A stretch of DNA of 64,000 nt from Leptothrix sp. (in: b-proteobacteria). Its GTDB lineage: Bacteria > Pseudomonadota > Gammaproteobacteria > Burkholderiales > Burkholderiaceae_C. Below, piece after piece: positions 20,337 through 23,302 of the stretch; positions within the stretch are counted from its first letter, which is position 1, and every line of letters starts with the position of its first letter. Where the stretch lies: assembly GCA_013822685.1 (NCBI GenBank), contig PNKV01000015.1, positions 62,001 to 126,000 of the forward strand. Direction: 5' to 3'. Position numbers and translations under genes: made by a program. Under the pieces are notes generated by a model. That model made no database searches. It saw only the letters and a list, made by a program, of their open reading frames with translations, and was not told the DNA's origin.

Positions 20337-21251
20337 TCAGGTGCGGCGGGCGGTTTTGACGCGCCAGCCAATCAGGCCCAAACCCAGGCCCATCAAGGCA
20401 AAGGTCGAGGGCTCCGGGACGCCGAGGTTGTCAGGCACGGGCCGCCAGTTGACCTGTGATCCACCGGAAAAGACCAGGTAGACATCCTCGGCGAACGCCG
20501 TGTCGTTGCTCAGTGTCAATGTGAAGGACTTGTTCACATTGGCAGGCGAAACTTGGGAAGTGGTCCCTTCTCTGACAATGGAAAGGCCGCCTTCAAGGGG
20601 ATTCCATTGGCTGAACAGCGAACCCCTCAGGCTGTTGCCGAGGTAAACCTGGTTGCCCGAAGCATCGATTTTGTAGAAAAAACCGTTGTAGAAGGTTTCA
20701 GCCACGAAGGTCTGCTTGCCCGAGGCGCCCGAGTTCAGCAACTGCGCGGTGTCGAAATTGATGGACGAGTTGATGCTGCCCTGGATCGTCACCTGGCTGT
20801 GGGCACCCAGCGTCCACAAGGAAGAGGAAGAAAAAGACGCTGTCGCAGGGATCTGGGACGTAGTCTCGGTTTGCACCAGGTTGGCCAGCGTCGGCAGCAT
20901 CAGGTTGGTTTTCGCCGCCAGGTTGTTGCCGGACTTCGATGCGGCGGTGAAATCAGGCCCGGTGATGACCTGACCACTGCTGTCGAAGGGCAAGGCGTTG
21001 AGTGTGACCGACGGTGGGTAGTCGGGGCGGAAGTAGGCACCCGCCGTCAAGGTGATGGTGGTCTTCTGCGGATTGGTCGAGGGTATGAACGAGGGGTTCA
21101 TCCCGTCCTGTGCATTCAGATCCTGGAGCGTGTAGCTCAGGTTGTCGATGTTGGAAGACGATTGGATGGCGACCGGGTCAATGGCCAAGGCCACCGAGCA
21201 TGCGGACACGGACAAGACGGCCACGAGGCCACGGCTGAAGATGTTGTGCAC
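20337..21251 (-). CDS. PEP-CTERM sorting domain-containing protein (paralog 1)
   Basis: Signal peptide and C-terminal [26 protein letters not shown]. Confidence 0.88.
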
Positions 21252-21342
21252 GAAAAACCTCCCTGTTGTACATGTATTTCATGGTGTCGCTGTCCCCGTC
21301 GCCTGAGGCACTGCGGCAACAGGCCTCTGCCAAAACGGGAAA

Positions 21343-22275
21343 TCAGGCACGGTGGGCTTTGACTCGCCAGGCCATCATACCCAAACCCAAGCCCATCAAG
21401 GCCCAGGTGCCGGGCTCAGGCACGGGCGTGATGGTGGGCAACACCGAGCCATAAGCGCTCATCAAGCCGGTGAAACCCACGGTCAGGGCCTGGTTGGAGG
21501 CATTTCGCACGTGGATGGAGAACGTGCGTTCCAGCAAGTTGGTGCCACTGGTGCCCAGGGATGAGCCATCAGCTACCACCACATCCGAAAATCCAATGGA
21601 TTCGTACAAATTGACAGGCTCGCCACCGTCAAACACCTCGGATGCATATGAATCGCCTCGAAGGGCAAACATGGTCAACTGAAAGCTGGCGGCGCCTGAT
21701 GCCTTGATGCCCACCGGGTTCCAGGCGCGGTCTGCCAAGGTATTGGCATTGGCATTCGCCTGCAGGAGCAAGGTGCCGCTGAACACTGCATCTGTGTTGC
21801 GGGACAAGGTCCACTGGTTGGTCACCGTGGCAGTCGACAGCAAAGAAGCCCCTTGGGGGGCGGTGCGGTAAAAGCCGAAGGGCACATTGCTGAAAGTGGC
21901 TGCGTCGGCCGTCACTTGCGCTGAAAGGTTTCCGCCATCTTTGGAGGACCGGAGCAGGCCGGAGGTCAACACCAGTTGGTCTTGCAACTTGGTGGTGTCC
22001 AGCAGGCTGCCGGCACCAGTGGTGGAAGTCCTCTGGTCTTGGATCGAGGTCAGGTAGGTGCCGCTCAGGCGAGCGTCACCCGCCAGTACAACAGAGGTGT
22101 CGGCATCGATGAGGTTCAAGGATGGCGAGGTGGAATCGAACTTGTTGAGGTCTGTCAGCTTGACGCTGAAATTGGTGAGCTGTGCTTGCCCCGTCACGAC
22201 TTGAGCTTGAGCCAGTTGAGGCCATGGGGCCAACGAGGCGGCCAAGGCCACCGACAGAATCTTGAACTTGGACAT
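21343..22275 (-). CDS. PEP-CTERM sorting domain-containing protein (paralog 2)
   Basis: Signal MSKFKILSVALAASLAPWPQLAQAQ; C-terminal [26 protein letters not shown]. Confidence 0.88.
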   Translation of the reverse strand: MSKFKILSVALAASLAPWPQLAQAQVVTGQAQLTNFSVKLTDLNKFDSTSPSLNLIDADTSVVLAGDARLSGTYLTSIQDQRTSTTGAGSLLDTTKLQDQLVLTSGLLRSSKDGGNLSAQVTADAATFSNVPFGFYRTAPQGASLLSTATVTNQWTLSRNTDAVFSGTLLLQANANANTLADRAWNPVGIKASGAASFQLTMFALRGDSYASEVFDGGEPVNLYESIGFSDVVVADGSSLGTSGTNLLERTFSIHVRNASNQALTVGFTGLMSAYGSVLPTITPVPEPGTWALMGLGLGMMAWRVKAHRA

Positions 22276-22360
22276 GACACTTCCCTGATGCATTATGGAT
22301 AACGCGCATTGAACGACAGGCCCCAAGCTTCTCTTAGCCGGAAAAACCCTGCATTCAAAA

Positions 22361-23302
22361 TCAGCGGCGGCCCTTGGTAAGCCAAACCACCAAGCCCAAC
22401 CCCAGGCCCATCAAAGCCCAGGAACTGGGTTCGGGCACTGGCGTGGCCTCCAACGTCGCGGCCGTGCCCACGCTCATGAACAACTGACCGTTCAGTTCGC
22501 CCATGCTGGCATTGCTCAGCCTCACGCTGAAGCTGTTGCGGTAACTGTCGCTCAGCAGATAGTCAGGATCGAACGACAAGCCCGAGGCATCCAGGATCTG
22601 CCGGGCACTGGCAAAGGCCTCGGCCGCATCGCCAAAGGGCTCACCATCGGCACCATCCGCGCTGAGCTGCACCGCGGTGAAGGCCAACATCGTCAGTTGC
22701 ACCCCGTATTGACCGGCCGCCATGTGCTGCACCAGGCTGCCCTGGGTCAGCTGGCTCAAGTCCACAGTGGCTTGAACCTGGGTGGTGCCATCAATCACCA
22801 AGGCCGTATTGGGCGACAAGGTCCAGGCGTGGTCGCCGACCAGAGGCGAGGGCACACCACTGTCATCCACGCTAGAACCGTAGCCGCTGACCACGCCGTT
22901 GGAGTCGAGGTACAGCCATTCACCGGCTTGCGCGCCAACACCGTTCAGGTCTTGGATGGTGCTGGCCTTGAGCTGCGAGTAAGAGGTGTAAGCCGTGCCC
23001 GAGCTGCCCGCGGTCAGCTCCCCGGATTGAGAAGTGACCGAGCCAATGGGTTGGGAGAACACATCGTTGCTCAAGACCACATGCTGAGCATCGTTGGGTT
23101 GGTAGTACCCGGCATAGGCCCCCACCTGGTTGAAGCGCACCCAAGGGGTGATGCCGTCGCTGGAGTCCAGATCTTCCAGGTGGTAGGACAAGCCGCTGAT
23201 CCAGGCCGATCCCGTGCTCAGAACGGCATCACTCTGGGCCCATCCCGGGGTGCACAGGGCCAGGCACATGGACCCGCCGAGCAAAGCTGATTTCATCCTC
23301 AT
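22361..23302 (-). CDS. PEP-CTERM sorting domain-containing protein (paralog 3)
   Basis: Signal MKSALLGGSMCLALCTPGWAQ; C-terminal [25 protein letters not shown]; start 23302 or 23296. Confidence 0.88.
   Translation of the reverse strand: MRMKSALLGGSMCLALCTPGWAQSDAVLSTGSAWISGLSYHLEDLDSSDGITPWVRFNQVGAYAGYYQPNDAQHVVLSNDVFSQPIGSVTSQSGELTAGSSGTAYTSYSQLKASTIQDLNGVGAQAGEWLYLDSNGVVSGYGSSVDDSGVPSPLVGDHAWTLSPNTALVIDGTTQVQATVDLSQLTQGSLVQHMAAGQYGVQLTMLAFTAVQLSADGADGEPFGDAAEAFASARQILDASGLSFDPDYLLSDSYRNSFSVRLSNASMGELNGQLFMSVGTAATLEATPVPEPSSWALMGLGLGLVVWLTKGRR

Follow-up and report, generated by a model that had tools for sequence, protein, structure and literature searches.

After export, PEP-CTERM proteins are cleaved at the PEP site and end up at the cell surface or in the exopolysaccharide; they are abundant and fast evolving, and few have a known function. 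The locus described here resembles the PEP-CTERM/EpsH systems (Haft et al. 2006, PMC1569441) in that its proteins combine a putative signal peptide, a PEP motif, a hydrophobic stretch and a basic end, in that many such copies occur per genome together with exosortases, and in that it evolves fast, with genes gained and lost between closely related species. PEP-CTERM genes in those systems, however, mostly stand alone in their operons, preceded by over 200 nt and a sigma-54 site (PMC1569441), whereas here we find a tight tandem array with gaps of 28–91 nt, no detected sigma-54 site and a fixed address between core genes. The locus also resembles MGE-poor turnover hotspots (Oliveira et al. 2017, PMC5635113), sharing conserved core flanks, rapid turnover of contents and no integrase or transposase that we noticed. 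It differs from them in that one secreted family dominates, in its genus-specific address beside oriC, between dnaN and gyrB, and in that recombination falls inside the tail repeats of the cargo, with no signal seen in the flanks (PMC5635113). The same core flanks enclose variable contents across 40 resolved genomes, and the locus belongs to a known kind of turnover hotspot, its address being the unusual part. A third likeness is to the PepA-type PEP-CTERM protein of Aquincola tertiaricarbonis, which is needed for floc formation and aggregation and is likewise a secreted PEP-CTERM protein of a related betaproteobacterium (PMC9850573); the best score against the floc_PepA model (NF033554) is, however, 17.5 bits against a cut-off of 80, by which identity with PepA was rejected, and the RpoN-type control site was not found in the array.

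The window, a 64,000-nt stretch of contig PNKV01000015.1, comes from the freshwater bacterium Aquabacterium, the nearest named match to its DnaN. The genes on which the analysis centres are as follows:

23331–24455, minus strand: dnaN, the upstream boundary (ORF; used for the genus and order comparisons)
22361–23302, minus strand: P1, a type A PEP-CTERM protein of about 313 aa (ORF; first gene after dnaN)
21343–22275, minus strand: P2, a type B PEP-CTERM protein of 310 aa (ORF with ribosome-binding site)
20337–21251, minus strand: P3, a type B PEP-CTERM protein of 304 aa (ORF; last before gyrB)
17689–20238, minus strand: gyrB, the downstream boundary (ORF; used for the genus comparison)

An initial annotation of this DNA had placed three PEP-CTERM genes on one strand between dnaN and gyrB, and we confirm this: P1, P2 and P3 are intact ORFs that share the strand and direction of both boundary genes, with spacers of 28 nt (dnaN–P1), 85 nt (P1–P2), 91 nt (P2–P3) and 98 nt (P3–gyrB). 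Each has a plausible ribosome-binding site, and these sites put the likely starts at 23302 (or 23296) for P1, 22275 for P2 and a GTG at 21251, preceded by AGGGAGG, for P3.

All three proteins carry the C-terminal tail described by PF07589 and TIGR02595, that is, a PEP motif, a hydrophobic segment and a basic end (Pfam E-values of 4e-6 for P1, 8e-7 for P2 and 1e-6 for P3; 27.1–29.4 bits against the Pfam cut-off of 20.7, and 22.6–24.9 bits against the NCBIfam cut-off of 16). Their translations begin with basic-hydrophobic N-termini ending in A-x-A-like sites. The window genome has 59 PEP-CTERM tails in total, and exosortase genes, which the initial annotation expected elsewhere in the genome, are present as three members of the EpsH family, each with XrtB as its best match and a score at or above the XrtB cut-off of 275. 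Control by sigma-54 and PrsK-PrsR is typical of proteobacterial PEP-CTERM systems and is not a requirement for membership. No sigma-54 −24/−12 site was found within 2 mismatches across 20238–23334, and the window genome (94% complete) has no PrsR match above the curated cut-off, which is a further difference from the described PEP-CTERM/EpsH systems (PMC1569441). Identity with the named NCBIfam PEP-CTERM families (EDSAP-1, PepA, XDP1, NF038129 and others) was rejected, as their matches lie in the tail or far under the cut-off; for EDSAP-1 (NF041538) the best is a weak, nearly full-length match to P2 (26.1 bits against a cut-off of 100) that is lost without the tail, and 0 of 32 tail-less cores match.

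One reading of the array is that P1–P3 are unrelated PEP-CTERM proteins with a common composition and tail. The P1–P3 pair taken alone is weak enough to allow this (blastp E 3e-4). Nevertheless, when the signal peptide and tail are removed, local alignments of the cores exceed shuffled controls for P1–P2 (z 10.3, 0/1000 shuffles), P2–P3 (z 4.8, 1/1000) and P1–P3 (z 4.0, 2/1000), as do global alignments of all three pairs (z 4.7–7.1, 0/1000). Across the genus, 32 of the 34 PEP-CTERM genes at the dnaN–gyrB address, P1–P3 included, are mutually linked without tails at E < 1e-3 and form one core family; the remaining two, found in G004 and G030, are PEP-CTERM proteins whose cores come from different families. 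The family alignment has the consensus L-S-Y-x-L-x-D-L-D-P-x-D-G-x-x-P, followed by T-L-S-x-x-T and then F-S-x-x-x-x-N, with an invariant Asp and an invariant Asn, and these conserved blocks are the N-terminal, middle and late blocks on which the proposal of diverged paralogs was originally based. Chance similarity is hence hardly credible, and it is contradicted for the core family as a whole.

With tails removed, no Pfam or NCBIfam model is matched by any of the 32 members. A profile of the core family finds members in 35 of the 42 genus genomes, some of them outside the dnaN–gyrB interval. Beyond the genus, a sample of 399 genomes from the order yields just 4 more genomes with members, and a sample from the class, 369 genomes in all, adds no further one; the order and class counts are lower bounds, since few candidates were scored per genome. 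Within the collection of papers searched, none treats PEP-CTERM together with dnaN and gyrB. The earlier observation was right and understated, and the core family is previously undescribed.

The insertion itself can be placed against the neighbouring lineages. For the order we took the 80 named loci whose DnaN is closest (8 Aquabacterium-like and 72 others, 71 of the latter with gyrB on the same stretch), and in all 71 of these neighbouring Burkholderiales loci the dnaN–gyrB gap is at most 229 bp. Among the 42 Aquabacterium genomes of the genus sample, 40 could be resolved at the junction, and a tally compiled by hand gives 17 empty intervals, 20 with 1–4 PEP-CTERM genes (counting G014, whose contig ends just past the start of one gene), two with a GGDEF gene only (G005 and G032, on the reverse strand) and one with an iron-uptake set. 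That dnaN and gyrB are usually adjacent in this lineage, as first stated, hence holds outside the genus but not within it, where 23 of 40 genomes carry an insert. Among the larger interval ORFs we noticed no integrase or transposase. Judged from these comparisons, dnaN–gyrB is a site shared across the genus and a genus-specific, origin-side turnover locus for one PEP-CTERM family.

Other contents of the interval are diverse. GGDEF genes accompany PEP-CTERM genes in G002, G003 and G062, and the interval GGDEF proteins (L154 in G032, L155 in G002, L159 in G062, L160 in G003 and L171 in G005) are encoded on the reverse strand and mostly have an N-terminal membrane part; some carry GEEAF, GEETF or GGGEF in place of GGEEF. 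The interval of G001 (L163, 1455–6430) encodes an ECF sigma/FecR fusion, a TonB-dependent receptor and a PepSY membrane protein, with no PEP-CTERM genes.

The initial annotation described the array as a family amplified at an origin-proximal site of high gene dosage. One part of this stands: the genes belong to one secreted family, are tandem and diverged paralogs, and occupy a position near the origin that is unoccupied in related genera. High gene dosage is a putative reason for the site, and many species have no array there. A recent duplication, in which one PEP-CTERM gene jumped in and duplicated twice in favour of high origin-proximal dosage, would account for a tandem array of one family on one strand, and the proximity to the origin follows from dnaA-dnaN. 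It is contradicted, however, by the divergence of the paralogs (19–28% identity with saturated synonymous sites) and is further opposed by the separate counterparts that each gene has at the same address in other species: P1 is 91% identical to its counterpart in the sister species G016, P2 about 90–94% identical to its own in G016, and P3 58% identical to a gene at the same place in G035. As the G016 event described below is also best read as a loss, we regard recent local amplification as very improbable; P1, P2 and P3 are instead ancient paralogs, each paired with a separate gene at this address elsewhere.

Copy number of PEP-CTERM genes at the address ranges from 0 to 4 across the genus, and on a dnaA+dnaN+gyrB tree presence and absence are interleaved (9 Fitch changes are needed or, if the array was gained only once, 12 losses). 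G022, for example, has an array and its sister G026 has none; G013 and G065 have one and G007 and G061 do not; G027 and G009 have one and G011 does not. In the protein tree the P1-like genes form one clade, type A, and the P2/P3-like genes another, type B. Type A usually lies on the dnaN side and type B on the gyrB side, and this holds wherever both types occur (the window genome G000, G016, G035, G003 and G023). Address is clustered on the tree (8 changes versus 19.7 in shuffles), but many deep branches are weakly supported, and the tree therefore does not separate a history in which genes were replaced by imported ones from one in which old paralogs were differentially lost.

Pairs of close species indicate how rapidly the contents change. 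Where flanking genes are 93–96% identical in DNA sequence, the best array pair is sometimes 83–91% identical and for several pairs only 25–40%. Between the window genome and G035, the P1-like genes show a synonymous difference of 0.65, equal to that of P1 versus P2, whereas P3, with 0.44, has the divergence of an ordinary ortholog. For a control PEP-CTERM gene at a distance of 26 kb (48793–49443) the synonymous difference is about 0.40, and it is 84–85% identical in all three species. Two close species can therefore carry genes of one type at one address that are not simple orthologs: either several A genes co-existed, of which losses left different ones, or a replacement took place. The dN/dS values of array genes (0.10–0.55) indicate purifying selection; positive selection was rejected, the average dN/dS being below 1 in all testable pairs. 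Cassette import by way of the flanks found no support: 180-nt bins of dnaN and gyrB show no consistent import footprint between close species pairs. PEP-CTERM genes in general are fast evolving, with frequent gain and loss (PMC1569441), and part of the turnover here is therefore ordinary; even so, across a sample in which many genomes are draft assemblies, array members are lost, retained or replaced patchily and far faster than dnaN, gyrB or the control PEP-CTERM gene.

Whether import is needed at all can be asked of these data. A purely vertical history, in which an ancestral array of several A and B genes was thinned by differential loss alone with no cassette brought in from outside, agrees with the A-then-B order kept in G000, G016, G035, G003 and G023, with the sufficiency of one gain and 12 losses, with the four B genes kept in G029 and the subsets of them kept in its relatives G017 and G034, and with flanks in which no consistent import footprint was seen. 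It is strained, however, by the A genes of G000/G016 and G035/G004, which are synonymously as diverged as P1 and P2, such that the vertical view would need many co-existing A genes in the recent ancestors of very close species; by G009 and G027, whose flanks are 96% identical and whose array genes are only 25% identical; and by foreign cargo, namely the iron-uptake genes of G001 and, in G004 and G030, PEP-CTERM genes from outside the core family. We give this history a real but minority chance.

Two further observations concern the relatives of G029. In G017, whose own array has no counterpart of the fourth array gene of G029, a relative of that gene lies downstream of gyrB at a distance of about 8 kb (G017:C21:35500-36900, L249); a relocation nearby is possible. 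Separately, a 422-aa PEP-CTERM protein is 100% identical in G017 and G034 (L261 and L262), genomes whose dnaA-dnaN-gyrB are only 95.6% identical, and a recent transfer is possible.

A mechanism for part of this turnover is suggested by the sorting tails, which form an 81-nt direct repeat in three copies about 1 kb apart:

22365–22445, minus strand: tail repeat copy 1, in P1 (74% to the reference copy)
21350–21430, minus strand: tail repeat copy 2, in P2, the reference copy (the G016 recombination breakpoint falls here)
20347–20427, minus strand: tail repeat copy 3, in P3 (matched by the hybrid gene of G016 at its 3′ end)

The array of G016 consists of P1 and a single further gene in which P2 is fused to the end of P3. 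Left of the breakpoint 189 of 195 informative sites match P2 and right of it 33 of 37 match P3 (0/10000 shuffles); the switch occurs around the shared 12-mer GCCTTGATGGGC within the tail, and the spacer downstream of the hybrid gene is that of P3. Because G035 keeps the P3 ortholog at the same place, loss of P3 by tail recombination is the simplest reading. Recombination within the near-identical tails fuses neighbours and changes copy number, as demonstrated in one event only, that of G016, and recombination between conserved tails that every member must keep would be a simple mechanism of turnover. More tentatively, and as less likely than not, we propose that this secreted-protein locus diversifies with its own sorting tail as a recombination handle: since every neighbour has to retain a common exosortase signal, selection would maintain the direct repeats, and the repeats would swap or delete the variable cores in a protected slot beside the replication origin.

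The slot ends at a conserved element in front of gyrB:

20256–20293, minus strand: putative gyrB leader (TAAAAT box at 20288–20293, then a terminator-like hairpin at 20256–20287)

A TAAAAT or TAGAAT box with a hairpin precedes gyrB in 34 of the 39 genus genomes with gyrB, whether the interval is filled or empty, and in 0 of 6 outgroups; the stem sequence varies between species with pairing kept, and the PEP-CTERM arrays are situated upstream of the element. Box and hairpin probably constitute the gyrB promoter and leader, and may represent either a promoter with an attenuator or a terminator overlapping a promoter. Rfam matches in the dnaN–gyrB interval were all under the gathering score and were treated as chance. 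The insertion is perhaps tolerated because gyrB keeps this presumed promoter-leader of its own, and the junction, tight in every related genus examined, can seemingly hold a variable secreted-protein cassette if the gyrB leader is intact.

The location could instead be functional, the array genes being expressed as an extension of the dnaA-dnaN operon such that replication and matrix genes are co-regulated. Only 28 nt separate dnaN from P1, a simple scan finds no sigma-70-like promoter on the minus strand of the array, the sole long-stemmed terminator-like site comes after P3, and the array lacks the sigma-54 −24/−12 site typical of proteobacterial PEP-CTERM genes (PMC1569441). These consensus scans are weak evidence, however; in G017, G034 and G029 a terminator-like hairpin, recognized by eye, stands between dnaN and the first PEP-CTERM gene, and the array is absent from half of the genus. 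Such an operon extension therefore seems to us rather unlikely.

As to what the proteins do, the AlphaFold model of P1 is of moderate confidence (pLDDT 75, pTM 0.76) and all-beta, and that of P3 (pLDDT 67, pTM 0.62) has the same order of strands and short helices, although both runs used one alignment and are therefore not independent. A search of the P1 model against the PDB gave matches that all have TM of about 0.1, several of the low ones being sugar-binding modules, and no fold is therefore claimed; the core family profile matched no PDB sequence. P1–P3 are most likely XrtB-sorted, all-beta matrix or adhesin proteins, and their putative link to exopolysaccharide is drawn by analogy from general knowledge of PEP-CTERM/EpsH systems (PMC1569441). 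The GGDEF genes in the interval of five species are the sole feature of the locus that fits a link to attached growth or exopolysaccharide, and as GGDEF genes are very common (21 matches in the window genome) that link is weak.

Taken together, we consider it probable that, in this genus, the space from dnaN to the gyrB leader houses a surface-protein locus that is specific to the lineage and turns over rapidly, and of which P1–P3 would be one species' current content. Insertion of cargo would be tolerated since gyrB presumably retains its own promoter-leader, and recombination within the PEP-CTERM tails, as seen in G016, fuses neighbours and changes copy number. The products would be secreted by Sec, after which an XrtB-type exosortase would cut them and either anchor or release them; they would serve as beta-rich matrix or adhesin proteins, with outer faces that differ from one species to another. 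The dnaN–gyrB locus offers a fixed address at which the birth, loss and shuffling of PEP-CTERM genes can be tracked against well-behaved flanks and a control gene.

Outside the dnaN–gyrB interval, G023 carries a second tandem run of three core-family PEP-CTERM genes (G023:C6:5000-8200, L252), which group together on the tree, unlike most dnaN–gyrB arrays. In the window itself, an hsdM-like gene directly downstream of gyrB (16036–17618, minus strand) is split into the overlapping frames 16036–16974 and 16839–17618, which suggests a frameshift in a restriction-modification methylase.
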